Source of the DNA: Limibacillus sp. | Lineage (GTDB): Bacteria; Pseudomonadota; Alphaproteobacteria; Kiloniellales; CECT-8803 | Length of the DNA stretch: 56,792 bases | NCBI GenBank assembly: GCA_037379885.1 | Contig: JARRJC010000031.1 | Coordinates: 1 to 56,792, forward strand | Direction of reading: 5' to 3' | Shown: piece by piece, positions 1 through 24,611 of the stretch | How the letters are laid out: each line of letters begins with the position of its first letter | Numbering within the stretch: the first letter of the stretch is position 1 | Translations under genes and position numbers: made by a program | Notes under the pieces: generated by a model | What the model was told of the DNA's origin: nothing | Databases searched by the model: none | Seen by the model: the letters and a program-made list of their open reading frames with translations, nothing else

Positions 1-382
1 CGCCGAGAATCGCAGGCGGCCGCGCGAGCGACTCTTCCAGGGCCGTGAGCCTCTCAAGACTGCGGCGCAGGCTATCGCCCTTCAGGCGGACGTCGGGGTT
101 CAGGAACAGAAGGAAGGTGGCCTCCGCCGCCCGCGCTCCAAGGTCCGCAGCCCGGCCATAGCCCAGATTCTCCCTTTGCCTCAGCAGTTCGAGCGGCAGT
201 CCATGCCTCTCCAGGCCTTCGGTGGAGCCGTCGCTTGAGGCGTTATCGACCAGGATGATCCGGGACAGGAATTGATCACGGCCTTCGCTCGCAGCGATTG
301 ATTTCAGGCAGCGATCCAGGAGCGCCCCCGCGTTCCAGTTGACGATCACGATATCAAGGTCGGGGGTCTTCGAGGACGGCAC
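1..382 (-). CDS. GT2-family glycosyltransferase (C-terminal part beyond window edge)
   Basis: The reverse strand translates as the N-terminus of a family 2 (GT-A fold) glycosyltransferase of the rhamnosyltransferase type. Visible motifs are DIVIVNWN near the N-terminus, LVDNASSDGS, a glycine-rich segment RENLGYGRAA and FLLFLNPDV, which follow the usual GT2 nucleotide-sugar binding order. The gene runs off position 1. I chose the GTG at 382 because AAGGAAG lies 9 nt upstream and because it places the first beta strand at the usual distance. The same frame stays open to a GTG at 565, overlapping the rfbC start, so a longer protein is possible. It is divergent from the dTDP-rhamnose genes, and its substrate may therefore be dTDP-rhamnose; that is inference from context. 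Confidence 0.8.
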   Translation of the reverse strand, partial: MPSSKTPDLDIVIVNWNAGALLDRCLKSIAASEGRDQFLSRIILVDNASSDGSTEGLERHGLPLELLRQRENLGYGRAADLGARAAEATFLLFLNPDVRLKGDSLRRSLERLTALEESLARPPAILG

Positions 383-557
383 GTCTCTTTGCTTCCTTGC
401 CAAGGCCTGGAATCTCGAGGGGTCATCATGCGCTGAAGCGTCCGCTAAGAAAAGACAGGCGCGCCATTCTAGCTCTCTTGCAATGGGCGAGGTTGTTTCG
501 CCCGCATGGGTTGGGGTATGGAAGGTCTGAAGGGCAATCGAAAAAGGGTCTTTTTGA

Positions 558-6652: not shown

Positions 6653-7198
6653 ATGAAGCAGAATGCTGAAAGCCTGCCGGTCGGCGTGGTGGTGGAGCGG
6701 CGCAAGTCCGACCACCCCTGGCTCGACCACACCTGGCGCGCGGTCGCGGTAATTCCCGGCGCGGCGGACCTCGATCCCCGCGGCCCCTGGAAGGAACTGG
6801 AGCGTGGCGAGGATTTCGTTCGCTTCCACGCCGGAACTCTGCCCATTGAGCTCTTTCGCAAGGAAACGGAAGCCTACCGGGTCAACCTGACCCAGGAGCC
6901 GCCGCGCATCTTCGTCGTGCTGCGCAAGGCCCATGAACCCGAAGAGGCCGAGCAGGAGCTCTACCCGATCCTCGCGACGGCTTCGCCCTATGAGGCCCAG
7001 GACTATCTGGACAGCGGCGAGGAGATCGTCGAGGGCGTCGCCATGCCGACGGCGCTGATCGCCTTCGTCAGCCAGTTCGTCGGCGAGTTCCACGTCGACG
7101 AGCCCTTCTATAAGCGCAAGCGCAAGCGCTACGACCCGGACAAGGTCGGCTTCGGGCGCAAGGGGCCGGCCAGCAACGGCGGCGGGTCGCACCACTAG
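6653..7198 (+). CDS. DUF3305 protein, formate dehydrogenase-associated
   Basis: A 181-residue soluble protein matching DUF3305, a family whose members are repeatedly encoded beside formate dehydrogenase operons. Recognisable parts are an N-terminal VGVVVERRKSDHPWLDHTWRAV segment, an acidic central region and a very basic C-terminus (KRKRKRYDPDKVGFGRK). There is no signal peptide or cysteine cluster. Its role is not established; a chaperone or maturation role for the enzyme is a common guess. The ATG follows ACAGGAACCC. The 127 bp between the PAP2 gene and this start has no other gene and should hold the promoter of the formate cluster, though I see no strong -35/-10 pair. Confidence 0.85.
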   Translation: MKQNAESLPVGVVVERRKSDHPWLDHTWRAVAVIPGAADLDPRGPWKELERGEDFVRFHAGTLPIELFRKETEAYRVNLTQEPPRIFVVLRKAHEPEEAEQELYPILATASPYEAQDYLDSGEEIVEGVAMPTALIAFVSQFVGEFHVDEPFYKRKRKRYDPDKVGFGRKGPASNGGGSHH

Positions 7199-7240: not shown

Positions 7241-7275
7241 ATGGCTGAGGGAAATGGCTGAGGGAAATGGCTGAG
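7241..7275 (+). repeat. Three tandem copies of the start region of the DUF3306 gene (13 bp unit)
   Basis: The unit ATGGCTGAGGGAA occurs at 7241-7253 and 7254-7266 and begins a third time at 7267 (ATGGCTGAGAAGG). Because 13 is not a multiple of three, the three ATG codons lie in three different frames. The first two each encode MAEGNG and stop at a TGA lying inside the next copy; only the third opens the gene. Each unit also carries a purine-rich GAGGGAA that can serve as ribosome binding site for the next ATG. Confidence 0.85.
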
Positions 7276-8028
7276 AAGGAAGAAAAGGGTTTCTTGAACC
7301 GCTGGTCGGCGCGAAAACAGGCGCGCCGCCTGGACGAACCCTTGCCGCCCGAACCCGGTGAGGAGAGCCCGGCGAGGGCTCCCGAACTCTCAGAGGAAGA
7401 GGCGGCGGCCCGCCAGAAGGAGATCGACGACTACGTCGCGTCCCTGCCGGAGCCTGAGAGCCTCAGTTACGACTCCGACTTCACGGCTTTCTTCAAGGAA
7501 GGCGTGCCGGAGGTCTTGAAGCGCCGCGCGATGCGCGTGCTGTGGCGCTCCAACCCGGTGCTGGCGAACCTCGACGGCTTGATCGACTACGGCGAGGATT
7601 TCACGGACAAGGCCACCGTGGTGCCGAACCTCAAGACGCTCTATCGGGTGGGCAAGGGCATGTTCACCGACGAAGACCTGATCAAGGAAGAACGCCGCCG
7701 CGCTGGCCTGCCTCCTGAGGAACCCCTGGAGGCCCAGGAAACCGCGCAAAGCGGCAAAACCACCGACGAGTCCCCCGAAGAAACGGCAGAATTCCCAACT
7801 GAAGCCGGGTCCGATCCAGCGGTTTCAGAGGCCGCGACAGCCGATTCCGGCCTTGTGGACGAAGCTGAAGCGCAGCCCTCCGAAACCCCGGCGCCGGAGC
7901 GCGTCGGAGAGCCGGGAGACAAGGCAGCCAGCCCGCGCCCCCACGCGCGGTCCGCAAACCTCCCTGTGGGTAAAAAGCGCCCGGCCCTGGCACGCCGCTG
8001 GGGACCGCCCGGCGACCCTTCCTCCTGA
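7267..8028 (+). CDS. DUF3306 protein, formate dehydrogenase-associated
   Basis: A 253-residue soluble, highly acidic protein of the DUF3306 family, the regular companion of DUF3305 in formate dehydrogenase loci. The conserved core is residues 1-150: FLNRWSARKQ at the N-terminus, then SYDSDFTAFFKEGVPEVLKRRAMRVLW, NLDGLIDYGEDFTD and KGMFTDED. The C-terminal 100 residues are low-complexity Glu/Pro/Thr/Ala with a basic end. The start is the last of three tandem ATGs (13 bp unit), the only one in this frame. No catalytic motif is seen. A maturation or scaffold role for formate dehydrogenase is suggested by context only. Confidence 0.85.
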   Translation: MAEKEEKGFLNRWSARKQARRLDEPLPPEPGEESPARAPELSEEEAAARQKEIDDYVASLPEPESLSYDSDFTAFFKEGVPEVLKRRAMRVLWRSNPVLANLDGLIDYGEDFTDKATVVPNLKTLYRVGKGMFTDEDLIKEERRRAGLPPEEPLEAQETAQSGKTTDESPEETAEFPTEAGSDPAVSEAATADSGLVDEAEAQPSETPAPERVGEPGDKAASPRPHARSANLPVGKKRPALARRWGPPGDPSS

Positions 8029-8213: not shown

Positions 8214-8819
8214 TTGGCCGAATTGGATCACGCCATCGACATTGCGGACGAAGACCAACTGCGAGCCAACTGCTACGCCCTCATAGGGCGGCTCTTGGCT
8301 TGTGCGCCGGACGCCGACACGTTGGCGATGGTCGGGCGTCTTTCCGGCGACGACTCCGAAATCGGCCAGGCCATTTCCGCCCTTTCCAGCGCGGCGCGCA
8401 ACGCCACCCCGCAAAAGCTTGAGCAGGAGCACTTCGAGCTCTTCATCGGTGTGGGTCAGGGTGAGCTGACGCCTTACGGTTCCTACTATCTGACCGGTTT
8501 CCTCAATGAAAAGCCTCTCGCCAACCTGCGCGCCGACATGGGTCGTCTGGGCATTGCGCGGGTCGAGGGCGTGCGCGAACCGGAAGACCACATCGCGGCT
8601 CTCTGCGAGATGATGGCCGGCCTGATCACCGGCGCCTTCGCGGCGCCCGGCGACATAGAGACACAACGCGAATTCTTCGAAAAACACCTGGCGCCCTGGG
8701 CGCCCCGCTTCTTTGAGGATCTGCAAGCAGCGCGCGCTGCGGCTTTCTACATGCCGGTCGGGCGCATTGGGCAGGTCTTCATGGATATTGAGAAACAAGC
8801 CTTCGAAATGGCGGCCTAG
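8214..8819 (+). CDS. TorD-family molybdoenzyme chaperone
   Basis: A 201-residue, all-helical cytosolic chaperone of the TorD/DmsD family. These proteins bind the Tat signal or the apo-form of a molybdopterin enzyme and hold it until cofactor insertion. Typical motifs are the FELFIGVGQGELTPYGSYYLTGF segment near residues 74-96 and PEDHIAALCEMMAGL near residue 123. The start is TTG, with GGGAGGT 8 bases upstream; no ATG is nearer. It sits directly before the Tat-signal protein and FdhA, so FdhA is its likely client. Confidence 0.9.
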   Translation: MAELDHAIDIADEDQLRANCYALIGRLLACAPDADTLAMVGRLSGDDSEIGQAISALSSAARNATPQKLEQEHFELFIGVGQGELTPYGSYYLTGFLNEKPLANLRADMGRLGIARVEGVREPEDHIAALCEMMAGLITGAFAAPGDIETQREFFEKHLAPWAPRFFEDLQAARAAAFYMPVGRIGQVFMDIEKQAFEMAA

Positions 8820-8917
8820 CGTCCAAGAAAAGCAACAAACCAGCGGCAAAGGGGATGACGCCGCGCCTAGGAACGAAAGTTTGTCCCGACCGTTCACCAA
8901 GTAGGAAAGGTGAGCTT

Positions 8918-9118
8918 ATGAGCAAAGAAAAAGCCACAGAGATGGGCCGGCGGGACTTCTTCCGCAAAGCCACTCTCGGCGCCGGCGTCGCCGGCGTTGC
9001 GGCGGCGGGTCTCGCGAAAGGGGCCGCGGCAGGCGAACCGGTGAAGCAACAGGCTTCCGGCTCGGGCTACCGCGAAACCGATCACGTCAAGAAGTACTAC
9101 GAACTGGCTCGCTTCTAA
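8918..9118 (+). CDS. Small Tat-signal protein of formate dehydrogenase operons
   Basis: A 66-residue protein made of a twin-arginine signal (MGRRDFFRKA, residues 9-18), a hydrophobic Ala/Gly/Val stretch (residues 19-38) and a short polar tail ending YRETDHVKKYYELARF. It matches the family known as formate dehydrogenase region Tat target, always found immediately before the catalytic subunit. The ATG at 8918 has AGGAAAGGTG upstream; a longer in-frame start at 8855 lacks one. Function is unknown. It ends 27 bp before fdhA. Confidence 0.9.
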   Translation: MSKEKATEMGRRDFFRKATLGAGVAGVAAAGLAKGAAAGEPVKQQASGSGYRETDHVKKYYELARF

Positions 9119-9145: not shown

Positions 9146-12013
9146 ATGCTCACACGTAAGACGAATGGGGTTGCAAAGGGCCCCCGTTTGTCAAAGGCGC
9201 TGGCGGCTTCCGTCGGCGGCGCCATTGACCGTCGTACCTTCCTGAAGCGTTCGGGGCTTGCTGCCGGTGGTATCGCCGCGGCCTCCTCGATGTCTTTTGG
9301 GATGGTGACAAAGGCTGAGGCGCAAGAAGCGTCCGGTGAAGTGAAACTGATCAAGTCCGTCTGCACCCACTGCTCGGTGGGCTGTACCGTGATGGCCGAG
9401 GTTCAGGGCGGCGTTTGGGTCGGGCAGGAGCCCGGCTGGGACAGCCCCTTCAACCTGGGTGCGCACTGCGCCAAGGGCGCGTCCGTCCGCGAGCACGCGC
9501 ACGGCGAGCGGCGCCTGAAGTATCCGGTCAAGCTCGTCGACGGCAAGTGGCAGCGCATGAGCTGGGACGAGGCCATCAACGAGATTGGCGACAAGCTGTT
9601 GGACATTACCGCCACCAGCGGTCCGGACTCGATCTACTGGCTCGGTTCGGCCAAGCACAACAACGAGCAGGCCTATCTGTTCCGTAAGATGGCCGCTTAT
9701 GCCGGGACCAACAACGTCGACCACCAGGCGCGTATCTGCCACTCCACCACGGTGGCGGGTGTCGCGAACACCTGGGGCTACGGCGCCATGACCAACAGCT
9801 ACAACGACATCCACAACTCCCGCGCCATGTTCTTCATCGGTGGCAACCCCGCCGAGGCGCACCCGGTGTCGCTGCAGCACATCCTGAAGGCCAAGGAGCA
9901 GAACGCCGCTCCTCTGATCGTCTGCGACCCGCGCTTCACGCGTACGGCCGCGCACGCTTCGGAGTACGTGCGCTTCCGCCCCGGCACGGACGTCGCCCTG
10001 ATCTGGGGCATTCTGTGGCATGTCTTCGAGAACGGCTGGGAGGACAAGGAGTTCATCCGCCAGCGCGTTTGGGGCATGGATCAGATCCGCGCCGAAGTGG
10101 CCAAATGGACCCCCGAGGAGACCGAGCGCGTAACTGGCGTTCCGGGTTCCCAGTTGAAGCGCGTCGCGCGCACGCTGGCCAACAACCGTCCCTTCACCAT
10201 CGTCTGGTGCATGGGCGGCACGCAGCATACGAACGGCAACAACAACACCCGTGCGTACTGCATCCTTGGCCTGGCGCTGGGCACCATCGGCACGCAGGGC
10301 GGCGGAACCAACATCTTCCGCGGCCACGACAACGTGCAGGGAGCCACCGACCTGGGCGTGCTCTGTCACACCCTGCCGGGCTACTACGGTCTTGCGACCG
10401 GCTCCTGGAAGCACTGGGCTCGCGTTTGGGAAACGGACTACGACTACATCCTGGGCCGTTTCGCCTCTCAGGAGTTCATGGAGAAGGCCGGCGTTCCTGT
10501 CTCTCGCTGGTTCGACCTGGCTCTCGAAGCCAAGGAGAACATCGAGCAGAACGACAGCCTGAAGGCCATGATCTTCTGGGGTCACGCGCCCAACTCGCAG
10601 ACCCGTCTGCCGGATATGCGCCGCGCCATGAGCAATCTCGACATGCTCGTCGTCGTGGACCCCTATCCGACCATGACCGCGGTCATGCATGAGCGCAAAG
10701 ACGGCGTCTACCTGCTGCCGGCCGCAACCCAGTTCGAGACCTATGGCTCCGTCACGGCCTCGAACCGTTCGATCCAGTGGCGTGACAAGGTGGTCGAGCC
10801 GCTCTTCGAATCTCTTCCCGATCACACGATCATGTACAAGTTCGCCAAGAAGCTCGGCTTCGCGGACGAAATGTTCAAGAACATCGCGGTGGAGAACGAC
10901 GAGCCCTCGATCGAGGACACGCTGCGCGAGATCAACCGCGGCATGTGGACCATCGGCTACACCGGCCAGTCGCCGGAACGCCTGAAGCTCCACATGGAGA
11001 ACCAGCACACCTTCGACAAGACGACCCTGCAGGCGCGGGGCGGTCCGGCCGACGGTGACTATTACGGGCTGCCTTGGCCCTGCTGGGGAACCGCGGAGAT
11101 GGGTCACCCGGGCACGCCGGTCCTCTACGACACCTCCAAGCCAGTCGCCGAAGGCGGTCTGTGCTTCCGCGCCCGGTTCGGCGTGGAGCGCGACGGGGAC
11201 AACCTCCTCGCCGAAGGCAGCTACCCGGTCGGCTCGGAGATCCAGGACGGCTATCCCGAGTTCACCATGGCCATGCTTCAGAAGTTGGGTTGGGACTCCG
11301 ACCTGACGGACGACGAGCGCGCCGCGATCGATGCGGTGGCCGGCGAGAAGACGAACTGGAAGACCGACCTTTCCGGCGGTATCCAGCGCGTCGCGATCGC
11401 TCATGGCTGTGCGCCCTTCGGCAACGCCAAGGCCCGGACCGTCGTGTGGAACTTCCCGGATCCGGTGCCCGCGCACCGCGAGCCGCTCTACACCTCGCGC
11501 CGTGATCTTGTTGCCGACTACCCGACCTACGAGGACCGCCGGATGTACCGTCTGCCGATCCTCTACAAGTCGATCCAGGACGAGGACTTCTCGGTCGATT
11601 ATCCGATCATCCTCACCTCTGGCCGACTGGTCGAGTATGAGGGCGGCGGTGACGAAACCCGTTCCAACCCCTGGCTGGCCGAGCTTCAGCAGGACATGTT
11701 CGTGGAGATCAACCCGGTCAACGCCAACAACCTGGGCGTCAAGGACGGCCAGATGGTGTGGGTCCACGGTCCTGAGGGCGCCAAGGTCAAGGTCAAGGCG
11801 ATGGTGACAGAGCGCGTTGGCGTGGATGTGGCTTTCATGCCCTTCCACTTCGGCGGTCACTGGCAGGGCGAATCGCTGCGGGATGTCTACCCCGCCGGTT
11901 CCGACCCCTACGTGTTGGGTGAAGCATCGAATACGGCCCAGACCTACGGGTACGACTCGGTCACCAACATGCAGGAGACCAAAGCCACTCTCTGCCGCAT
12001 CGAGCCCGCATAA
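9146..12013 (+). CDS. fdhA: Formate dehydrogenase catalytic subunit (respiratory, Tat-exported)
   Basis: The molybdenum/tungsten bis-MGD subunit that oxidises formate to CO2 on the periplasmic side. A twin-arginine signal (DRRTFLKRSG, Arg29-Arg30) precedes a hydrophobic segment. A [4Fe-4S] site follows with C73, C76, C80 and C108. The metal ligand is Cys198 followed by His199 (QARICHSTTV), so this is a Cys enzyme and needs no selenocysteine. GGNPAEAHPV and the C-terminal dinucleotide-binding domain (LTSGRLVEYEGGG onward) are typical. At 955 residues it is close to FdnG/FdhA size. It lies between the Tat peptide gene and fdhB with short gaps, in one transcription unit with its chaperone. Confidence 0.96.
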   Translation: MLTRKTNGVAKGPRLSKALAASVGGAIDRRTFLKRSGLAAGGIAAASSMSFGMVTKAEAQEASGEVKLIKSVCTHCSVGCTVMAEVQGGVWVGQEPGWDSPFNLGAHCAKGASVREHAHGERRLKYPVKLVDGKWQRMSWDEAINEIGDKLLDITATSGPDSIYWLGSAKHNNEQAYLFRKMAAYAGTNNVDHQARICHSTTVAGVANTWGYGAMTNSYNDIHNSRAMFFIGGNPAEAHPVSLQHILKAKEQNAAPLIVCDPRFTRTAAHASEYVRFRPGTDVALIWGILWHVFENGWEDKEFIRQRVWGMDQIRAEVAKWTPEETERVTGVPGSQLKRVARTLANNRPFTIVWCMGGTQHTNGNNNTRAYCILGLALGTIGTQGGGTNIFRGHDNVQGATDLGVLCHTLPGYYGLATGSWKHWARVWETDYDYILGRFASQEFMEKAGVPVSRWFDLALEAKENIEQNDSLKAMIFWGHAPNSQTRLPDMRRAMSNLDMLVVVDPYPTMTAVMHERKDGVYLLPAATQFETYGSVTASNRSIQWRDKVVEPLFESLPDHTIMYKFAKKLGFADEMFKNIAVENDEPSIEDTLREINRGMWTIGYTGQSPERLKLHMENQHTFDKTTLQARGGPADGDYYGLPWPCWGTAEMGHPGTPVLYDTSKPVAEGGLCFRARFGVERDGDNLLAEGSYPVGSEIQDGYPEFTMAMLQKLGWDSDLTDDERAAIDAVAGEKTNWKTDLSGGIQRVAIAHGCAPFGNAKARTVVWNFPDPVPAHREPLYTSRRDLVADYPTYEDRRMYRLPILYKSIQDEDFSVDYPIILTSGRLVEYEGGGDETRSNPWLAELQQDMFVEINPVNANNLGVKDGQMVWVHGPEGAKVKVKAMVTERVGVDVAFMPFHFGGHWQGESLRDVYPAGSDPYVLGEASNTAQTYGYDSVTNMQETKATLCRIEPA

Positions 12014-12027
12014 AGGAGACCTGATTA

Positions 12028-12624
12028 ATGGCACGTATGAAGTTCCTTTGTGATGCTGAGCGCTGCATTGAGTGCAACGCCTGCGTCACGGCGTGTAAGA
12101 ACGAACACGAGGTTCCTTGGGGCGTTAACCGCCGTCGTGTTGTGACGATCAACGACGGCAAGCCCGGTGAGCGTTCGATCTCTGTGGCCTGCATGCACTG
12201 CTCTGATGCGCCGTGCATGGCGGTCTGCCCGGTCGACTGCTTCTACCAGTCGGATGAAGGCGTGGTCCTTCATTCCAAGGACCTCTGCATTGGTTGCGGA
12301 TACTGCTTCTACGCCTGTCCTTTCGGCGCGCCGCAGTACCCGCAGGCCGGCAACTTCGGAAGCCGCGGCAAGATGGACAAGTGCACCTTCTGCGCCGGCG
12401 GTCCCGAGGAGGACAACTCCGCGGCCGAGTTCCAGAAGTACGGCCGTAACCGTCTTGCCGAGGGCAAGCTGCCGCTCTGCGCCGAGATGTGCTCGACCAA
12501 GGCACTTCTCGCAGGCGACGGCGACCTGGTGTCCGACATCTACCGCGAGCGCGTCGTCGCCCGTGGCTTCGGGTCGGGCGCTTGGGGCTGGGGCACGGCC
12601 TATCAGCAGAAGGCCGGCTCTTAG
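12028..12624 (+). CDS. fdhB: Formate dehydrogenase iron-sulfur (beta) subunit
   Basis: A 198-residue ferredoxin-like subunit that carries electrons from FdhA to the cytochrome b subunit. Four [4Fe-4S] binding sets are visible: CIECNACVTAC near residue 13, CMHCSDAPCMAVCP near 56, CIGCGYCFYACP near 90, and CTFCAGG with a late CAEMC. There is no signal sequence, so it is probably co-exported with FdhA by the Tat route. It starts 14 bp after fdhA with AAAGGAG. It lacks the C-terminal membrane helix of E. coli FdnH, as in the FDH3-type beta subunits. Confidence 0.95.
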   Translation: MARMKFLCDAERCIECNACVTACKNEHEVPWGVNRRRVVTINDGKPGERSISVACMHCSDAPCMAVCPVDCFYQSDEGVVLHSKDLCIGCGYCFYACPFGAPQYPQAGNFGSRGKMDKCTFCAGGPEEDNSAAEFQKYGRNRLAEGKLPLCAEMCSTKALLAGDGDLVSDIYRERVVARGFGSGAWGWGTAYQQKAGS

Positions 12625-12813: not shown

Positions 12814-13011
12814 ATGACTCGTAAGAACACGATCTACGCCCTTTTGGGTCTTGTCCTCGTTGCCGGTCTCACCACCGGTTGCCGCGAGGAAGAACAGGAC
12901 CGCGTGCTCCTTCTGGAGCCGGGCGTCTACCAAGGCAAACCAGACAGTCCGCTGAGCGAAGCTACCGAGGAAGAGCTGCGCCAGCGTGCGAGGAATCAAG
13001 GCGCTCTGTAG
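12814..13011 (+). CDS. Tiny lipoprotein in the formate dehydrogenase operon
   Basis: A 65-residue protein with a signal peptide and lipobox (LVAGLTTGC, Cys at residue 23), then a short charged domain (REEEQDRVLLLEPGVYQGKPD, ending RARNQGAL). The lipidated form would be about 43 residues. It is anchored in the inner or outer membrane. The ATG at 12814 is preceded by AAGGCGGAGAG. It lies between the iron-sulfur and cytochrome b subunits, so it may be an accessory or small subunit of the complex. I do not recognise a named family. Confidence 0.8.
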   Translation: MTRKNTIYALLGLVLVAGLTTGCREEEQDRVLLLEPGVYQGKPDSPLSEATEEELRQRARNQGAL

Positions 13012-13108: not shown

Positions 13109-14326
13109 GTGAGACAGGTGAGGGAGTTTTTGAACGCCATGTCTTTCTCCAAGCATACTTCGGCCGTCCTTGCGGCCCGGACCGGCGAGGCGCCTGAGCG
13201 GCGGACCTTGTTCTGGCTGACCCTTAGCGCCGTGATCGTCGCTCTCGGGCTGTTGCTGGCGGGGCCGGCGGCCGCCCAGAGCGGCGTCGAGGAAGAGAAT
13301 TCCGGCCTGCGCAGTGCGCCGACCGGCGGCACCGTGCCGGGCGACAGCCTGGGCGCCACCAGCGACACCGACTTCTGGCGTGAGATCCGGCGCGGCGCCG
13401 AAGGTCAGGTTTCGATCCCCGACCGTCAGGCAGGCGTTCTGATCCAGGCCTATGGAGAGAACTGGCGCAACGTGCGCAATGGCCCTTTATCGCTTTACGG
13501 CTCCTGGGTGCTACTGGGCATGCTGGGGCTGCTGGCGCTCTTCTTCCTGCTGCGTGGGCGCGTCAAGATCGAATCGGGCTGGTCGGGCCAGACGATCGAG
13601 CGCTTCAACGGTCTTGAGCGCTTCACCCACTGGATGACGGCGGTGTCCTTCGTGATCCTGGCCATCACCGGCCTCAACCTGCTCTACGGGCGCTACCTCG
13701 TCGCGACGCTCGTGGGCCGTGAGCCCGGTGCCGCCCCCGGCGGGTCGGCCATCGAGGCGATCTACGGGACCCTGACGCTCTGGGGCAAGTTCGCTCATAA
13801 CTATCTGGCCTTCCCCTTCATGCTCGGCGTCGTCCTGATGTTCATCCTCTGGGTGCGTCACAACATTCCAAACCGCTACGACGTGATCTGGATCCTGAAG
13901 GGCGGCGGCCTCTTCTCCAAGCACAGCCACCCGCCCAGCAAGAAGTTCAACGCAGGCCAGAAGATCATCTTCTGGACCGTGGTGCTGACCGGCATCTCGC
14001 TGTCGCTCTCCGGCGTGGCGCTGCTGTTCCCCTTCGAGGTCACGCCCTGGGCGAAGACCTTCGCAATCCTCAACGTCTTCGGATTGGGGCTGCCCACGGA
14101 ACTGACGGCGATGCAGGAGATGCAGCTTTCACAGCTTTGGCATTCGATCCTGGCGCTGGTCGTGATCGCGGTGATCATCGCTCATATCTACATTGGATCG
14201 GTTGGCATGCAGGGCGCTTTTGCCGCCATGGGTTCGGGCAAGGTCGACCTGAACTGGGCCAAGGAGCACCACAACCTTTGGGTCGAGGAGCAACAGCGCA
14301 AGCAAGCCTCACAACCCGCGGAGTAA
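13109..14326 (+). CDS. fdhC: Formate dehydrogenase cytochrome b (gamma) subunit
   Basis: The di-haem b membrane subunit that passes electrons from FdhB to quinone. The N-terminus holds a signal-like helix ending AGPAAAQS, then about 70 periplasmic residues, then four or five membrane helices. Candidate haem ligands are the His in ERFTHWMTAV, in GKFAHNYLAF, and the pair in LWHSILALVV and IAHIYIG. The C-terminus (MGSGKVDLNWAKEHHNLW) is a family hallmark. At 405 residues it is longer than E. coli FdnI (217) but typical of the FDH gamma subunits with an N-terminal extension. The GTG start has AAGGA upstream; an ATG at 13139 is an alternative. Confidence 0.94.
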   Translation: MRQVREFLNAMSFSKHTSAVLAARTGEAPERRTLFWLTLSAVIVALGLLLAGPAAAQSGVEEENSGLRSAPTGGTVPGDSLGATSDTDFWREIRRGAEGQVSIPDRQAGVLIQAYGENWRNVRNGPLSLYGSWVLLGMLGLLALFFLLRGRVKIESGWSGQTIERFNGLERFTHWMTAVSFVILAITGLNLLYGRYLVATLVGREPGAAPGGSAIEAIYGTLTLWGKFAHNYLAFPFMLGVVLMFILWVRHNIPNRYDVIWILKGGGLFSKHSHPPSKKFNAGQKIIFWTVVLTGISLSLSGVALLFPFEVTPWAKTFAILNVFGLGLPTELTAMQEMQLSQLWHSILALVVIAVIIAHIYIGSVGMQGAFAAMGSGKVDLNWAKEHHNLWVEEQQRKQASQPAE

Positions 14327-14331
14327 CCGAT

Positions 14332-14721
14332 TTGAAAAATTCGCTGAAGCATCTCTTGGTTCTGGTCGCGGGCACGGCTCTCGTCGGCTTCGCTCTGCTG
14401 CCCGCCACCGCGGGCGCGCAGGGCGGCGTCACCAAGGAGTCTGTCGAGCAGAGCCTTGAGGAGAGCTATCCCGTCCAGGTCCTGAAGATCGTGGAAGGTG
14501 AGATCGACGGCACCGCTGCCTGGATCGTCACCGTCATGAACGAGGGCGGCGACTTCAACAGCGCGTTCCAGGTCACGACCCTGGCCGTAGACCGGCAGAC
14601 GGGCGATTTGATCCCGTCCTTCCGGCCTGGGGCGAGCGGCTACCAGGGGTCTCCGGGCACCGCGCTCTCGCCGGGGTCGGAAATCCATCCCAACCAGATG
14701 CAAACCGGCCCCTGGCGCTGA
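14332..14721 (+). CDS. Small exported protein of the fdh operon (PepSY-like)
   Basis: A 129-residue protein with a signal peptide (LLVLVAGTALVGFALLPATAGAQG) and a mature domain of about 95 residues. The segment VLKIVEGEIDGTAAWIVTVM followed by TTLAVDRQTGDLIPSF has the beta-strand and x-D-x-x-T-G-x pattern of PepSY-like domains; this is a weak resemblance. The TTG start lies 5 bp after the fdhC stop, with CGGAG overlapping that stop. Periplasmic location and tight coupling to fdhC suggest an accessory role in the formate dehydrogenase complex. Confidence 0.75.
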   Translation: MKNSLKHLLVLVAGTALVGFALLPATAGAQGGVTKESVEQSLEESYPVQVLKIVEGEIDGTAAWIVTVMNEGGDFNSAFQVTTLAVDRQTGDLIPSFRPGASGYQGSPGTALSPGSEIHPNQMQTGPWR

Positions 14722-14747: not shown

Positions 14748-16103
14748 GTGATGGGAGCAAAGATCGACGAATCCAAGGGGGGAGCGCGCCGGTCCTGGCG
14801 GCTCCCCCTTTTTCTGTCGCTTCTCGCTCTGCTGTTCTGCGCCGCTGCAACGCCAAGCTCTGCTTCCTACCTTGGCCACGCGGGCTATGTGAAGGCCCTG
14901 GCGATCTCTCCGGACGGCCAACGCGTTCTCAGCGGCGGTTTTGATTACAGCGCCATCCTCTGGGACCGCGAGACCCAGGAGCCCATCAAGCGCTTCGACG
15001 CGCATGATGGCGCGGTCAACGCGGTGGCCTTCACCCCGGACGGCACGCGCATCCTGACGGCGGACGACGCGGCCATCATCCGGCTTTGGGATATTGAAAG
15101 CGGGCAGGAACTCGCCCGCTTCACCGGGCATGAAGGCAAGATCGCGGCTTTGACGCTGGCGCCGGACGGCAAGCACTTCGCCACCGCAGGCTGGGACAGG
15201 ACCGTGCGCTACTGGTCTCTGGAGCAGCCCGAAGCCCTGCTGGTGCTGGAGGGTCATGAGAACAACGTCAACGCCCTCGCATTCACGCCCGACGGCGGAA
15301 CGCTGGTGAGCGGCGGCTACGATTCCGCCATCAAGGTCTGGGACCTGGAGAGCGGCGCCCTGACCCTGTCGATCGACGGGCATGACTTCGGCGTGAACGG
15401 CGTGGCCGTGCGCCCCGACGGCGCCCAGATCGTCTCGGCCAGCGGCGACGAGACGCTGCGCCGCTGGGATTTGCGCCTCGGCGAGGAGATCGAGAGCCAG
15501 CAACTCCATGAGAGCCCCATCTTCGCCCTGGCGCTGTCGCCCGACGGCGATCTCGCAGCCACCTCCGGCGTGGAGGGCCTGATCCGCGTCTGGAGCTTCA
15601 CCGAGGGGCGCGAGGTGCTGCTCCTGGCGGGCCACGAGGCACCGGTCTGGGCGCTCGCCTTCGATCCGGCCGGCGAGAGCCTCTTTTCAGGCAGCAGCAA
15701 GGGCGTGATTCGCGAATGGCGTTTGTCGGACGGCTCGGAGATCGGCGAGGAGGAGTCCGTCGCCCTGGCGACGGAGACTCTGCCCCTGCCCGAGCACCCC
15801 GGCGCCTGGCAGTTCCGCAAGTGCGCCATCTGCCACAGCCTGGAGCCCGACGGCGGCGGGCGTGCCGGTCCCTCTCTCTACGGCGTCTTCGGACGGGAGG
15901 CCGGGACGCTGGAGGGCTACCGCTATTCGCCCGCGCTGCTTGAGAGCCAGATCGTCTGGAATGAGGAAACCATCTACCGCCTGTTCGACGAAGGCCCCCA
16001 TATCGTCACGCCCGGCAGCAAGATGCCGGTCCAGCGGCTGCGCGATCCCGAAGAGCTTCAGGTGCTGGTGCAGTACCTGAAGGAGGTAACGCGGCCCGAG
16101 TGA
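14748..16103 (+). CDS. Secreted seven-bladed WD40 propeller fused to cytochrome c
   Basis: A 451-residue periplasmic protein. After a signal peptide (residues about 17-40, ending SSAS) come exactly seven WD40 repeats with GH..V.A.A..PDG...SGG.D..I..WD spacing, enough for one closed propeller (residues about 43-335). A class I cytochrome c domain follows, with CAICH (C359, C362, H363) and a Met ligand in GSKMPVQ (M426). It is last in the formate dehydrogenase gene set, 26 bp after the PepSY-like gene. An electron-acceptor or docking role for formate dehydrogenase is inferred from position. The start is GTG with GGGAG 11 bp upstream; the next codon is ATG. Confidence 0.9.
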   Translation: MMGAKIDESKGGARRSWRLPLFLSLLALLFCAAATPSSASYLGHAGYVKALAISPDGQRVLSGGFDYSAILWDRETQEPIKRFDAHDGAVNAVAFTPDGTRILTADDAAIIRLWDIESGQELARFTGHEGKIAALTLAPDGKHFATAGWDRTVRYWSLEQPEALLVLEGHENNVNALAFTPDGGTLVSGGYDSAIKVWDLESGALTLSIDGHDFGVNGVAVRPDGAQIVSASGDETLRRWDLRLGEEIESQQLHESPIFALALSPDGDLAATSGVEGLIRVWSFTEGREVLLLAGHEAPVWALAFDPAGESLFSGSSKGVIREWRLSDGSEIGEEESVALATETLPLPEHPGAWQFRKCAICHSLEPDGGGRAGPSLYGVFGREAGTLEGYRYSPALLESQIVWNEETIYRLFDEGPHIVTPGSKMPVQRLRDPEELQVLVQYLKEVTRPE

Positions 16104-19015: not shown

Positions 19016-20113
19016 TTACTCCTTCGCCTCTGCCTCGCGCAGCAGCGTGAGGATTGCATCTTCCCCGATCATCTCCGCCGCCTCAAAGGCGGTCCAGCCG
19101 TCCTTGGCGACCGGCTTGGTGCTGGCGCCGGCTTCCAGCAGCAGACGAACCATGTCGTAGTCGCCCCGGTTCGCGGCGAACATCAGCGCGGTGTTCCCGC
19201 TTTCCACGGCCGGTGCGTTGACGTCCGCCCCCGCCGCGATCAGGCGTTGGGCGGCGTCATGCTGCCCGGTGCGCGCGGCTTCCAAGAGAGGCGGCCGTCC
19301 CTCGCGGCCTGGCGCGTCCGGGTCCGCGCCCAGTTCCAAGAGCCGTTCCAGAGAGGAGCGAATCCCCCAATAGGCGGCGATGCCGAGCGCTGTCGCGCCC
19401 TCGGGCCCGCGCGCGTTCAGGTCCAGCCCGAGCTCGGCGAGCCGGGTGAGGGTGCGCGGCGATTCCGCCTGCACGGCCAGATGCAAGGCGCCGGAGCCGT
19501 CGTTCAGCCGCGCCGCCGGGTCGGCCCCCGCCTCCAGCAGGAAATCCAGCGCGGGCCGGTTGCCCCGGCTGGCGGCGGCCAGAAAGGGCGTCATGCCGTC
19601 GTCCGCGCTGGCGTTCACCTGGGCGCCCCGCGCCAGAAGCTCGGGGATGAGCGGGAAGGCCAGGGGCTCGAAGGAGGCCTCGATCAGGGCTGTGTTGCCG
19701 TCGCGTCCATCGCGGGATTCGATGTCCGCCCCGGCGTCCAGAAGGGCGGCCAGGGCGGGCTTGTTGCCGCTTTGCGCGGCGATGTGCAGCGGCGTGCGCT
19801 CGAAGTCGCGGTCGCGCGGCTCCACCTCGGCCCCGGCGTCGATCAGGACCCGGACCACCTCGGCGCTGCCCGCCGCAGCCGCCACGTGCAGAGGACGCCG
19901 GCCCGAGGGGTCCTCGGCCTCGATCTCAGCGCCCCGCTCCAAGGCGAAGGCTGCGAGTTCGGCATTGTTCTCCGCTGCGGCCTGGAACAGCGCGACGGTG
20001 GGGACCGACGGCTCTTCCTGAGCCTGCGCGGGGGCTGGAAGCATCAGGAGAGCGAGGCTCAGCAGCGCTGCCGCGAGAGCTCCGCCCCAGCGAGACTGGC
20101 GTGGGTCACCCAA
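19016..20113 (-). CDS. Exported ankyrin-repeat protein
   Basis: A 365-residue protein with a signal peptide (LAAALLSLALLMLPAPAQAQ) followed by nine consecutive ankyrin repeats covering nearly all of the mature chain (for example PLHVAAAAGSAEVVRVLIDA and ALMFAANRGDYDMVRLLLEA). Periplasmic ankyrin proteins in Proteobacteria are linked to oxidative-stress protection next to catalase genes; whether that applies here is unknown. I place the start at the TTG at 20113, with CGGAG 8 bp upstream inside the fdsA stop region; a longer frame from 20191 would overlap fdsA. It is therefore translationally coupled to fdsA, with a 4 bp gap. Confidence 0.85.
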   Translation of the reverse strand: MGDPRQSRWGGALAAALLSLALLMLPAPAQAQEEPSVPTVALFQAAAENNAELAAFALERGAEIEAEDPSGRRPLHVAAAAGSAEVVRVLIDAGAEVEPRDRDFERTPLHIAAQSGNKPALAALLDAGADIESRDGRDGNTALIEASFEPLAFPLIPELLARGAQVNASADDGMTPFLAAASRGNRPALDFLLEAGADPAARLNDGSGALHLAVQAESPRTLTRLAELGLDLNARGPEGATALGIAAYWGIRSSLERLLELGADPDAPGREGRPPLLEAARTGQHDAAQRLIAAGADVNAPAVESGNTALMFAANRGDYDMVRLLLEAGASTKPVAKDGWTAFEAAEMIGEDAILTLLREAEAKE

Positions 20114-20117
20114 GCGG

Positions 20118-22889
20118 CTACTCCGCGGCCACCTTGTCGCCCAGCGCTTCGATCTTGGCCGCGCAGAACTTGAACTCCGGGATCTTCCCATAGGGATCGA
20201 GCTTCGGGTTGGTCAGCAGGTTGGCTGCGGCCTCGGTGAAGCAGAAGGGGATGAAGACCATTCCCTCCGGCACGTCGCCGTCGGCGCGCAGGGTGATGGT
20301 CACCTCTCCGCGGCGCGTGGCGACCTTGATCTTCCCGCCGGGTTCGACGCCGATGCGCTTGACCTCCCGCGGGTTGACCGCTGCCACCGCCTCGGGCTCC
20401 AGAGCGTCCAGGTTGCCCGCGCGCCGAGTCATGGCCCCGGTGTGCCAGTGTTCCAGCAGGCGCCCGGTGGTCAGCACCCAGGGGAACTCGACGTCCGGCA
20501 GCTCGTCGGGCGGCAGCAGCTCCGTCGGCACCAGCTTGCCGCGCCCGCTCTTGGTCGGGAAAGCCTCGCCGAAGATGATCTCGTTGCCCGGCTTGTCGGG
20601 GGCGTCGCAGGGGTAGGTGACCGCTTCTTCGCGCTCCAGCCGCTCCCAGGTGATGTTGTTGAGCGAGGGCATGGCCTGCTTCATCTCGGCGAAGACGTCC
20701 CAGGGGCCCTCGTAGGACCAATCCAGCCCCATGCGCTTGGCGATCTCGGTGGTGATCCACCAGTCCTGGCGGGCGTCGCCCGGCGGCGGCACGGCGGGAC
20801 GGGCGATCTGCACCTGACGGTTGGTGTTGGTGAAGGTGCCCCACTTCTCGGCATGGGCCGAGGCCGGTAGGATGACGTCGGCGTGCCAGGCGGTTTCGGT
20901 CATGAAGATGTCCTGCACCACCAGGTGTTCCAGCTTGGCCAGCGCCTGGCGGGCGTGTTTCTGGTCGGGGTCGGACATGGCCGGGTTTTCGCCCAGGATG
21001 TACATGCCCTTGATCTGGTCCGCGAGGATGGCGTCGACGATCTCGACCACCGTCAGGCCCTTGTCTCCATCGAGCTCGGTGCCCCAGAAGTCCTCATAGA
21101 ACTTCTTGATGCCCTCGTCGCCCACCGCCTTGTAGTCCGGATAGACCATGGGGATGAGGCCGGCGTCGGAGGCGCCCTGCACGTTGTTCTGACCGCGCAG
21201 CGGATGCAGGCCCGTGCCGGGCCGCCCGACCTGTCCCGTGGTCAGCGCCAGCGAGATCAGGCAGCGCGCGTTGTCGGTGCCGTGGGTGTGCTGGGAAATG
21301 CCCATGCCCCAGAAGATGATGGAGTTCTGGGCGGTCGCGTAGCTGCGCGCCACGTCGCGGATGACCGCTGCTGGAATCTCGCAGACCTTCTCCATCTCCT
21401 CGGGCGGGAAGGCCTTCACGCGCTCGGCCAGTTCCTCGAAGCCCTCTGTGTGGGCCTGGATGTACTGCTTGTCGTAGAGCTCTTCCGTCACGATCACGTT
21501 CAGCATGGCGTTCAAGAGCGCGACGTCGGTGCCCGGCTTGAACTGCAGCATCGCGGTCGCATAGCGGCTGAGCGCATGCTTGCGCGGGTCCAGCACGTAG
21601 AGCTTGGCGCCGCGCTTGGCCGCCTGCTTCAGATAGGTGGCGGCGACCGGGTGGTTCTGTCCGGGGCGCGCGCCGATCACGATGATGCAGTCCGCCTTCT
21701 CGGCCGCGCGGAAGGGCGCGGTCACCGCGCCGGAGCCGATGCCCTCCATCAGGGCGGCGACGGAGGAGGCATGGCAGAGCCGCGTGCAGTGGTCGACGTT
21801 GTTGGTGTGGAAGCCCTGGCGGATCAGCTTCTGGAACAGATAGGCCTCTTCGTTCGAGCCCTTGGCCGAGCCGAACCCGGCGATGCCCTTGGGGCCGTGC
21901 TCCTCATAGACCTTCTTCAGGCCGGCGGTCGCGCGCTCCAACGCCTCTTCCCAGCTGGCCTCGCGGAAGTGGGTGAGGGGGTTGCCGTCGGCCACCTTGT
22001 CGTCCCAGGCCTTGGGCGCGTCCTCGCGGCGGATCAGCGGCTTGGTCAGGCGGTTGGGGTTGTGGATGTAGTCGAAGCCGAAGCGGCCCTTGACGCAGAG
22101 CCGGTTCTCGTTCGCCGGGCCGTTACGCCCGTCGACCTGGACGACCTTGTCGTCCTTCACGTGGACGGTGGTCTGGCAGCCGACGCCGCAATAGGGGCAG
22201 AGGCTGTCCACGGTCTTGTCGGAATAGACGCTGCGCTTGCCGGTCTCGTCGAGAAGGTTGGCTTCCATCAGCGCGCCCGTGGGGCAGGCCTGCACGCACT
22301 CGCCGCAGGCCACGCAGGTCGACTCGCCCATGGCGGAATCGAAGTCGAAGATGATCTGCGCCTTGGAGCCGCGGTAGGCCATGCCGATCACGTCGTTGAC
22401 CTGCACTTCGCGGCAGGCCCTGACACAGAGATTGCAGTGGATGCAGGCGTCGAGATTGACGGCCATGGCCGGGTGGCTGTTGTCGATCACGGATCCTTCG
22501 GCCTTCGGAAAGCGGCTTTCGGTCACGCCCATGTCGGCGGCCCAGTGCCAGAACTTGGACTCCGGGTCGTGCGCGACCTCCCGCTTGGGCTGGTCGGCGA
22601 CCAGCAGCTCGAACACCATGTCGCGGGCCTTCTTGGCGCGCTCACTGGCGGTCTTGACCTTCATGCCCTCGGCGGGCTCGCGGATGCAGGAGGCGGCGAG
22701 CACCCGCTCGCCCTCGATCTCCACCATGCAGGCGCGGCAGTTGCCGTCCGCCCGGTAGCCGGGTTCCGGCTGGTAGCAGAGGTGCGGGATCTCCACGCCC
22801 TGGCGCTGGGCGACCTGCCAGATGGTCTCGCCCGCGGCAGCTTCGACTGTCTCGCCATTCAGCTCGAAAGTGATCTTGGTCTCGGCCAT
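20118..22889 (-). CDS. fdsA: NAD-dependent formate dehydrogenase alpha subunit
   Basis: A 923-residue cytosolic molybdenum formate dehydrogenase. In order: an N-terminal [2Fe-2S] ferredoxin domain (C38, C51, C54, C68), two [4Fe-4S] ferredoxin sets (C149/152/155/159 and C192/195/198/202), the catalytic-domain [4Fe-4S] site (C231, C234, C238, C265), the bis-MGD domain with Cys372-His373 as metal ligand (TRLCHASS), and a dinucleotide-binding C-terminus (LTTGRLLEHWHTG). It forms the formate-NAD oxidoreductase with the fused FdsG-FdsB encoded 6 bp upstream. It carries Cys rather than Sec and no Tat signal. No fdsD or fdhD gene is adjacent, which differs from Rhodobacter or Cupriavidus fds operons. 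Confidence 0.95.
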   Translation of the reverse strand: MAETKITFELNGETVEAAAGETIWQVAQRQGVEIPHLCYQPEPGYRADGNCRACMVEIEGERVLAASCIREPAEGMKVKTASERAKKARDMVFELLVADQPKREVAHDPESKFWHWAADMGVTESRFPKAEGSVIDNSHPAMAVNLDACIHCNLCVRACREVQVNDVIGMAYRGSKAQIIFDFDSAMGESTCVACGECVQACPTGALMEANLLDETGKRSVYSDKTVDSLCPYCGVGCQTTVHVKDDKVVQVDGRNGPANENRLCVKGRFGFDYIHNPNRLTKPLIRREDAPKAWDDKVADGNPLTHFREASWEEALERATAGLKKVYEEHGPKGIAGFGSAKGSNEEAYLFQKLIRQGFHTNNVDHCTRLCHASSVAALMEGIGSGAVTAPFRAAEKADCIIVIGARPGQNHPVAATYLKQAAKRGAKLYVLDPRKHALSRYATAMLQFKPGTDVALLNAMLNVIVTEELYDKQYIQAHTEGFEELAERVKAFPPEEMEKVCEIPAAVIRDVARSYATAQNSIIFWGMGISQHTHGTDNARCLISLALTTGQVGRPGTGLHPLRGQNNVQGASDAGLIPMVYPDYKAVGDEGIKKFYEDFWGTELDGDKGLTVVEIVDAILADQIKGMYILGENPAMSDPDQKHARQALAKLEHLVVQDIFMTETAWHADVILPASAHAEKWGTFTNTNRQVQIARPAVPPPGDARQDWWITTEIAKRMGLDWSYEGPWDVFAEMKQAMPSLNNITWERLEREEAVTYPCDAPDKPGNEIIFGEAFPTKSGRGKLVPTELLPPDELPDVEFPWVLTTGRLLEHWHTGAMTRRAGNLDALEPEAVAAVNPREVKRIGVEPGGKIKVATRRGEVTITLRADGDVPEGMVFIPFCFTEAAANLLTNPKLDPYGKIPEFKFCAAKIEALGDKVAAE

Positions 22890-22895
22890 GGGTGA

Positions 22896-24611
22896 TCAGA
22901 GCTCCTCTGGGAAGTATTTGAGAGCGCAGAGCAGGGGGTTGGGCGCGGCCTGCCCGAGGCCGCAGATGGAGGCGTCGATCATCAGCTTCGACAGCTCCTG
23001 AAGCAGGGGCTGGTCCCATTCGGCCTCTTTCAGCAGCGCGACGGCCTTTTCCGTGCCGACGCGGCAGGGGGTGCACTGACCGCAGGACTCGTCCTCGAAG
23101 AAGCGCATGAGGTTCAGGACGGCGGCGCGGATCGAGTCCTTGTCCGAGAGCACCACGATGGCTGCGGAGCCGATGAAGCAGCCGTGTTCCTGAAGCGTGT
23201 CGAAGTCGAGCGGCACGTCGCCCAGGGAGGCGGGCAGGATGCCGCCCGATGCGCCGCCGGGGAGGTAGGCCTTGAAGCTGTGGCCTTCTTCCATGCCGCC
23301 GCAGTAGTCCTCGATCAGCTGTTTCATGGTGATGCCGGCGGGGGCCAGCTTCACGCCCGGCTCCTTGACGCGGCCCGAAACCGAGAAGGAACGCAGGCCC
23401 TTGCGGCCGTTCATCCCCTCGTCGGCGAACCAGGAGGCGCCGTTCTCCAGGATGTCGCGCACCCAGTGCAGCGTCTCGACGTTGTGGTTCAGGGTCGGAC
23501 GGCCGAAGAGGCCGACCTGGGCGATGTAGGGCGGGCGGTGGCGGGGCAGGCCGCGCTTGCCCTCGATGGACTCGAGCATCGCCGACTCCTCGCCGCAGAT
23601 GTAGGCCCCGGCGCCGCGCCGCAGTTCCAGCGGGCAGTGGGCGGTCAGGCCCTCCTCGGCGAGGCGCGCCATCTCCCGGCGCAGAATCTCCAGGACGGCG
23701 GGGTACTCGTCGCGCATGTAGACGTAGCCCGCCTCGCAGCCGACCGCCCAGGCGGCGATCAGCGTGCCCTCCAGGAAGCGGTGCGGGTCGCGCTCCAGAT
23801 AGTGGCGGTCCTTGAAGGTGCCGGGCTCGCCCTCGTCGCCGTTGACGGTCAGGAGGCGCGGTCCGGGCTGCTGGCGGACGATGCCCCACTTGCGCCCGGC
23901 CGGGAAGCCCGCGCCGCCCAGGCCGCGCAGGTTGGAGTCCGAAAGGGTCTTGATGACCTCCTCGGCGTCGCGCTCGCCCGACAGGCAGGCGCGCAGCAAC
24001 TGGTAGCCGCCCTCCGCGACATAGGCGTCGAGGTCCTTGTAGGCCGGGATCTCGGGGTGGAAGTGCTGCCCGGCGATCGTCTCGGCGATGCTCTCGACAG
24101 TGGCGGAATCGACATGGTTGTGCCCGACCTCGGCGGCGGGCGCGCAGTGGCAGCGGCCCATGCAGGGGGCGCGGAGCACCCGCACATCGGCGCCCAGACG
24201 CTCGGGCAGTTCGGCCAGCAGCTTCTCCGAGCCCATCATCTCGCAGGTGATGGAATCGCAGACGCGGACCGTGACGGCGGGCGGCGGCGTCTCGCCGTCC
24301 AGCACGATATCGAAGTGGGCGTAGAAGGAGGCGACCTCGTAGACCTCGGCCATGGGGATGGAGAGAGCCTGGGACAGCGCCTGCAGATGGCCCGCCGGCA
24401 GATGGCCGACGGCGTCCTGGATCAGGTGGAGGTATTCGATCAGCCGGTCGCGCCGCAGGGGCTGTTCGCCCTCCAGCAGCTTCGTCACCTCGGCCTCGGC
24501 GGCCTCCTCCAACTGGCGGCCCTTCGGAAAGCCTGGTTGAAAGCGGCGCCCGGAACCGGGGGGAATGCTGCGGTCGATGCCGCGTGCGCTGATGGCGTCG
24601 TCCATGGGCAT
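22896..24611 (-). CDS. fdsB: Formate dehydrogenase FdsG-FdsB fusion (NuoE-NuoF type)
   Basis: A 571-residue diaphorase subunit that combines two proteins usually encoded separately. Residues about 35-180 are a thioredoxin-like [2Fe-2S] domain (FdsG/NuoE) with C118, C123, C150 and C154. The rest is FdsB/NuoF: FMN/NAD site GLGGAGFPAGRKW and NGDEGEPGTFKDR, then CGEESAMLESIEGKRGLPR, an SLBB region, and the [4Fe-4S] site CGQCTPC (C510, C513, C516) plus a late Cys in ASICGLG. It passes electrons from FdsA to NAD+. It leads the minus-strand operon with fdsA. ATG at 24611; a second ATG lies two codons on. Confidence 0.94.
   Translation of the reverse strand: MPMDDAISARGIDRSIPPGSGRRFQPGFPKGRQLEEAAEAEVTKLLEGEQPLRRDRLIEYLHLIQDAVGHLPAGHLQALSQALSIPMAEVYEVASFYAHFDIVLDGETPPPAVTVRVCDSITCEMMGSEKLLAELPERLGADVRVLRAPCMGRCHCAPAAEVGHNHVDSATVESIAETIAGQHFHPEIPAYKDLDAYVAEGGYQLLRACLSGERDAEEVIKTLSDSNLRGLGGAGFPAGRKWGIVRQQPGPRLLTVNGDEGEPGTFKDRHYLERDPHRFLEGTLIAAWAVGCEAGYVYMRDEYPAVLEILRREMARLAEEGLTAHCPLELRRGAGAYICGEESAMLESIEGKRGLPRHRPPYIAQVGLFGRPTLNHNVETLHWVRDILENGASWFADEGMNGRKGLRSFSVSGRVKEPGVKLAPAGITMKQLIEDYCGGMEEGHSFKAYLPGGASGGILPASLGDVPLDFDTLQEHGCFIGSAAIVVLSDKDSIRAAVLNLMRFFEDESCGQCTPCRVGTEKAVALLKEAEWDQPLLQELSKLMIDASICGLGQAAPNPLLCALKYFPEEL

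Follow-up and report, generated by a model that had tools for sequence, protein, structure and literature searches.

A WD40 propeller-cytochrome c fusion protein encoded with FDH3-type formate dehydrogenases in Alphaproteobacteria

The window analyzed in the present study is a stretch of 56,792 nucleotides (contig JARRJC010000031.1, positions 1 to 56,792 of the forward strand) from the Limibacillus sp. assembly GCA_037379885.1. It carries a run of genes for an FDH3-type formate dehydrogenase, all on the same strand, in the order DUF3305, DUF3306, TorD-like, formate_TAT, FdhA, FdhB, a small lipoprotein-like ORF, FdhC, orfX, and a gene in which a WD40 propeller is fused to a cytochrome c domain (Table 1). 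The initial annotation placed this fusion gene at the end of the formate dehydrogenase genes, which was confirmed; the gene that follows it is encoded on the other strand. Its likely start codon is the ATG at 14751, giving a protein of 450 aa (14751..16103, +), the numbering used below. The small lipoprotein-like ORF is conserved in many FDH3 loci. orfX, which was absent from the initial annotation, is kept between fdhC and the fusion gene in about 37 related loci. Its relatives show weak PepSY matches, and the best structural match to its low-confidence model (pLDDT 69) is YpmB (E 0.09, probability 1.00), which we take to be a PepSY-domain protein. We count orfX as another conserved gene of the FDH3 set.

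Table 1. Features of the FDH3 locus and its surroundings in the window
Feature	Position	Strand	Evidence or remark
DUF3305 protein	6653..7198	+	Pfam
DUF3306 protein	7267..8028	+	Pfam
TorD/NarJ-family chaperone	8214..8819	+	PF02613
Formate dehydrogenase region TAT target	8855..9118	+	TIGR02811
fdhA, molybdopterin catalytic subunit	9146..12013	+	955 aa
fdhB, FDH3 beta subunit	12028..12624	+	NF038355 FDH3_beta, 347.9 bits (cut-off 240)
Small lipoprotein-like ORF between fdhB and fdhC	12814..13011	+	65 aa, LTTGC
fdhC, cytochrome b561-type gamma subunit	13139..14326	+	haem-b His 164, 220, 335, 349
orfX, secreted PepSY-like protein	14332..14721	+	129 aa, between fdhC and fusion
WD40-cytochrome c fusion ORF	14748-16103	+	451 aa
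Fusion: signal peptide	residues ~1-39		450-aa numbering
Fusion: WD40 propeller	residues ~40-328		450-aa numbering
Fusion: linker	residues ~329-349		450-aa numbering
Fusion: haem-c domain	residues ~350-446		450-aa numbering
Class I cytochrome c domain, mitochondrial/c2 type	15798..16088	+	PF00034, CAICH, Met425
Protein of nearly all ankyrin repeats	19016-20191	-	391 aa
Molybdopterin protein with 2Fe-2S and 4Fe-4S domains, plus Nuo51-type protein	20118-24611	-	FdsAB-like

The end of orfX lies 29 bp from the ATG of the fusion gene. The gap between fdhC and the fusion gene was shorter than 60 bp, or was an overlap, in 31 of the 60 same-strand loci tested. Scanning the window from the end of fdhC to the fusion gene revealed no promoter- or terminator-like site that would give the fusion its own transcript, although such scans are weak in GC-rich DNA. 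The gene thus appears to be co-transcribed with fdhC; transcription separate from fdhC had been named in the initial annotation as evidence against its proposal. Approximately 4 kb from the fusion gene, the molybdopterin protein and the Nuo51-type protein encoded on the opposite strand form a pair that resembles an NAD-linked formate dehydrogenase, and the ankyrin-repeat gene adjoins its FdsA-like member.

A signal peptide, exactly seven WD40 repeats, and one class I haem domain with CAICH and a Met ligand had been read from the sequence in the initial annotation, and Pfam searches and alignment bore this out. The N-terminus is a typical hydrophobic signal and forms a helix in the AlphaFold model. 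Apart from this signal, the Pfam search of the fusion revealed no membrane or signalling domain. The AlphaFold model (81 sequences) had a mean pLDDT of 92.1 and a pTM of 0.87, the latter suggesting a fixed mutual arrangement of the two domains. Since relatives down to 31% identity keep the two-domain layout, the architecture is far beyond chance, and the fusion represents a widespread orthologous family rather than a local oddity. Proteins of this family are labelled 'c-type cytochrome' or 'hypothetical protein' by NCBI, and no NCBIfam model built for the fusion was found among 37 relatives. The sole NCBIfam match of the protein in the window was to cytochrome c550 CycA (NF043008), at 51.2 bits against a cut-off of 240, which does not place it in that family.

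Each of the seven WD40 repeats (PF00400) scored at least 27.6 bits against a curated cut-off of 27, and the Pfam search detected no WD40 repeats elsewhere in the 3.1 Mb genome. The model aligned to WD40 propeller structures with a best Z of 46.0 and an rmsd of 1.3 over 290 residues; profile and structure searches both indicated a closed seven-bladed propeller. Cytochrome c is bound by the WD40 domains of Apaf-1. Apaf-1 ranks high in the structure search (Z of 43.1), but this does not indicate kinship, because all listed WD40 propellers score about 42-46. Besides the residues of the fold itself, the conserved positions of the propeller are Phe64, Asn90, Asp106, Trp148, Asn174, Tyr190, and Trp300. 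They fall on blades 7-1-2-3-4, with blades 5 and 6 being less conserved, and we presume from general knowledge of WD40 structures that they lie on the top face. The model and the structure comparison revealed no evident cofactor site in the propeller.

The haem domain is a class I cytochrome c (PF00034, 30 bits, cut-off 21.3). CAICH occupies residues 358-362, and the distal ligand Met425 lies within the family motif PG[ST]KMPxQ. In 37 relatives that were picked without regard to the haem motif, the ligands (CAICH and Met425) are invariant, and there is little or no variation in CxxCH, Gly-Pro, Trp403, and PGxKMPxQ. Mean conservation was higher in the haem domain (0.68) than in the propeller (0.55). 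Among PDB structures, those of mitochondrial cytochrome c and bacterial c2 came closest (E about 1e-19 to 1e-18). A comparison of 137 domains with horse cytochrome c showed that the haem ligands, including the Met80 equivalent, and the equivalents of Arg38 and Trp59 are present in every domain. In contrast, the equivalents of Lys72, 73, 86, 87, and 88 are mostly non-basic and Phe82 is mostly replaced, whereas the positions of Lys13, Lys27, and Lys79 mostly remain basic. KMPxQ, with invariant Pro at position 81 and Gln at 83, was present in all 137 domains, 80 of which had been found by this motif and the other 57 independently of it; horse cytochrome c has KMIFAG at this site. The domain therefore departs from the lysine ring and Phe82 by which cytochromes c/c2 that shuttle to oxidase or bc1 are recognized. 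Since the lysine ring is largely gone, Phe82 is replaced, and Pro81 and Gln83 are invariant, the haem edge used for oxidase docking appears to have been rebuilt. With much of this ring lost, through which cytochrome c contacts the oxidase, docking on a downstream oxidase, as suggested in the initial annotation, becomes less likely.

The distribution of the fusion follows that of FDH3. In a class sample of 385 alphaproteobacterial genomes (orthologs taken at E below about 1e-55), FDH3_beta was present in 45 of the 47 genomes with the fusion and in 11 of the 338 without it (Fisher p about 1e-45, with the relatedness of genomes ignored). In one of the exceptions (G286), fdhC lies just upstream of the fusion on the same contig, near the contig start. 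Among 61 genomes of the order to which the window belongs, 47 had the fusion, 46 had FDH3_beta, and 43 had both; at least one of the four exceptions is an assembly break, because fdhC is on the same short contig. In a phylum sample of 398 genomes, FDH3 occurred in all 22 genomes with a full-length fusion, and the fusion was found in none of the 32 FDH3-bearing genomes outside Alphaproteobacteria. A scan of species genomes yielded at least 567 relatives of the fusion; carriers include Bradyrhizobium, Sinorhizobium, Roseibium, and Sagittula, together with a few gammaproteobacteria, such as Thiodiazotropha, whose copies are nested inside the alphaproteobacterial tree.

In 39 of 45 class-sample genomes, no more than 15 kb separated the fusion gene from FDH3; in the species scan, 60 of the 80 loci had it next to FDH3 genes. 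Eighteen genomes had an unlinked fusion: FDH3_beta exceeded the cut-off elsewhere in 14 of these and gave a weak match only in one more, and two of the four genomes without FDH3_beta over the cut-off are small, probably incomplete assemblies. Thus, the fusion is encoded with FDH3 and nearly always co-occurs with it, and a wide occurrence without formate dehydrogenase, which the initial annotation had regarded as contrary to its proposal, was not seen. The fusion gene may be downstream of fdhC, convergent to fdhC, upstream of DUF3305, or unlinked. Since the upstream, downstream, and convergent layouts all exist, linkage has been retained through rearrangements. In the layout upstream of DUF3305, genes for a 4Fe-4S protein, a biotin/lipoate-ligase-like protein, DUF6505, and DUF6352 are in between. 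This accessory set, with the 4Fe-4S protein on the opposite strand, was observed between the fusion and DUF3305 in Rhizobiales-type loci (L156 10285-14740, L212 13172-17677, and L214 11244-15670). DUF6352- and DUF6505-type ORFs were present in all 15 loci compared. The fusion is also part of FDH3 clusters on plasmids in Sinorhizobium meliloti, Sagittula stellata, and Bradyrhizobium. An ABC transporter with a solute-binding protein adjoins the plasmid FDH3 cluster in two loci (L212 8282-10551 and L213 13704-15999); L212 also has molybdopterin genes, and the transporter is possibly for molybdate or tungstate. In six loci of a Rhodospirillaceae-like group (L100, L106, L107, L113, L125, and L143), the fusion is away from FDH3, with genes that resemble those of an RND efflux pump on one side and a stretch of histone deacetylase-like and isoprenoid genes on the other.

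One supported clade encodes the propeller on its own, next to fdhC. A stand-alone cytochrome with KMPxQ is convergent to the separate propeller gene in two loci (L055 and L069), and the convergent cytochrome of three others (L058, L065, and L066) has KMYGG instead. In G067, a convergent cytochrome adjoins its propeller. L062 and L071, and the genomes G103, G363, and G287, showed no haem gene next to the propeller; the L072 propeller is on a short contig without FDH3 genes. The split clade nests within the fusions in a midpoint-rooted tree, which suggests that the split genes arose by fission of the fusion. The occurrence of fused and separated forms beside the same enzyme suggests that the propeller and haem domain act together. 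Propellers without an adjacent haem gene may have a haem-free role. Changes at Asp106 and Lys130 in the split clade might mark a contact with the fused haem domain, or may reflect one change within a single lineage. A decayed copy next to FDH3 genes (L076 3844-4491) has CxxFH and missing blades, and looks like a pseudogene.

Genome comparisons strongly support a functional tie of the fusion to FDH3. The fusion may be a dedicated periplasmic accessory, and more specifically redox, subunit of the FDH3-type respiratory formate dehydrogenase, to which we assign a probability of approximately 0.5. The conserved top face of the propeller (blades 7-1-2-3-4) would plausibly be the surface that docks on the FDH3 complex; the initial annotation had suggested FdhA/FdhB as one possible site. 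The tethered haem would then take electrons from FDH3, via the FdhB iron-sulfur chain or FdhC, and pass them to an oxidase or a further cytochrome in the periplasm. The genome of the window encodes possible acceptors, namely two haem-copper oxidases and c cytochromes besides the fusion.

Respiratory formate dehydrogenases of the FDH3 kind are thought to feed quinone. FdhC aligned with E. coli FdnI (E 3.8e-18), and its four haem-b His ligands were present in all 93 loci compared, three of which lack the fusion. A loss of quinone reduction in FdhC was accordingly rejected, the ligands being present with and without the fusion, and, with these His residues kept, FDH3 retains the quinone route. 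The fusion was missing from 11 FDH3-bearing genomes of the class sample and from every one of the 32 such genomes outside Alphaproteobacteria in the phylum sample; with so many loci of this kind, FDH3 can do without the fusion. Therefore, an electron exit via the fusion is at most an additional route, and the haem would act as a side exit alongside the quinone route of FdhC. Such an asymmetry, with the fusion rarely found apart from FDH3 but FDH3 frequently lacking the fusion, would be expected of an accessory subunit. As proposed in the initial annotation, it is possible that the haem accepts formate electrons and bypasses quinone. However, with its four haem-b ligands, FdhC would make a quinone bypass unnecessary, which counts against a side exit. 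We speculate only tentatively that the alphaproteobacterial FDH3 is in effect a formate:cytochrome c oxidoreductase, in which a WD40 clamp holds a c2-derived haem as a periplasmic exit independent of quinone and bc1; we regard this as doubtful.

The main rival to a redox subunit is a factor for assembly, stability, or quality control, in which the propeller scaffold would assist the assembly of FdhA/FdhB with FdhC once Tat export is complete, the haem being a redox check or a structural element. The fusion gene accompanies the probable maturation genes TorD, DUF3305, and DUF3306, and in many loci also DUF6505, DUF6352, and the biotin/lipoate-ligase-like protein; moreover, G103 and G363 keep the propeller beside FDH3 without a neighbouring haem gene. 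BamB is a periplasmic propeller with an assembly role. However, conservation is stronger in the haem domain than in the propeller and both ligands are maintained there, the only copy with a broken haem motif (L076) also lacks some blades and is pseudogene-like, and many FDH3 loci manage without the fusion. We consider an assembly role to be rather unlikely, but worth weighing. It is improbable that the fusion is a redox or formate sensor that signals the state of FDH3 or the periplasm to a regulator or chaperone system. Haem-c sensors exist, and a regulator gene is located shortly downstream in the Sagittula locus; however, the fusion has no membrane or signalling domain beyond the signal peptide, and no regulator was a constant neighbour in the plasmid loci inspected (Sinorhizobium meliloti, Sagittula stellata, and Bradyrhizobium).

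The unlinked copies, such as those near RND pump and isoprenoid genes, would be expected of a general periplasmic cytochrome that is carried along beside FDH3 by chance. However, the presence of FDH3 elsewhere in most of these genomes, with two of the four others being probably incomplete assemblies, the persistence of linkage across several layouts, and the plasmid modules that hold the fusion and FDH3 together make this quite improbable. An inward electron flow, with the haem feeding FDH3 or its cofactor for activation or CO2 reduction, is very improbable, because the potential of a c2-type haem is normally far above that of formate/CO2 and CO2 reduction from it would be unfavourable.

If the fusion is an accessory subunit or assembly factor of FDH3, a second electron exit or a new assembly device has been added to a standard enzyme in hundreds of alphaproteobacteria. 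A conserved extra haem subunit would matter for the use of formate by plant symbionts and by marine bacteria. Proteins so far labelled 'c-type cytochrome' or 'hypothetical protein' also acquire a testable partner. The natural split versions and the propellers without an adjacent haem gene are built-in controls.

A formate dehydrogenase with a propeller-tethered cytochrome would be the first known to us. A search of the open-access full-text literature found no paper on a WD40-cytochrome c protein tied to formate dehydrogenase. torD/dmsD-fdhGHI operons with DUF3305/DUF3306 have been reported, in a text from which 'WD40' is absent (PMC4464133). Since neither a paper in this literature nor a curated family that we found covers the fusion, it is so far undescribed. 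WD40 proteins with planctomycete-specific cytochrome domains (PSCyt) in Verrucomicrobia/Planctomycetes similarly combine WD40 and haem-c in one protein; however, their genes are often near sulfatase genes and have been tentatively linked to carbohydrate use, not formate (PMC5615132). The fusion has a cytochrome of another family: its haem domain matched PF00034, with PF13442 below the cut-off at E up to 0.1, and no PSCyt Pfam model.

To our knowledge, neither a cytochrome c nor a WD40 subunit is present in E. coli FdnGHI. FDH3 resembles this enzyme (PDB 1kqf) in FdhA, FdhB, and a cytochrome b gamma subunit with conserved haem-b His positions, and outside Alphaproteobacteria it mostly lacks the fusion. 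The haem domain of the fusion is similar to mitochondrial cytochrome c and c2 in its CxxCH and its Arg38, Trp59, and Met80 equivalents. In contrast to mitochondrial cytochrome c, c2, and c550, it is fused to a propeller, has a reduced lysine ring, and carries KMPxQ. Cytochrome cd1 nitrite reductase (NirS) has a periplasmic haem-c domain joined to an eight-bladed beta-propeller that holds haem d1. The fusion likewise joins haem-c to a periplasmic propeller; however, this is a seven-bladed WD40 propeller with no evident cofactor site. The FdhABC3-type formate dehydrogenase of Desulfovibrio comes with a dedicated c-type cytochrome subunit, which is a tetrahaem c3 lacking a propeller. By this general description, a c-type cytochrome of its own is what this enzyme and the fusion-bearing FDH3 would have in common.
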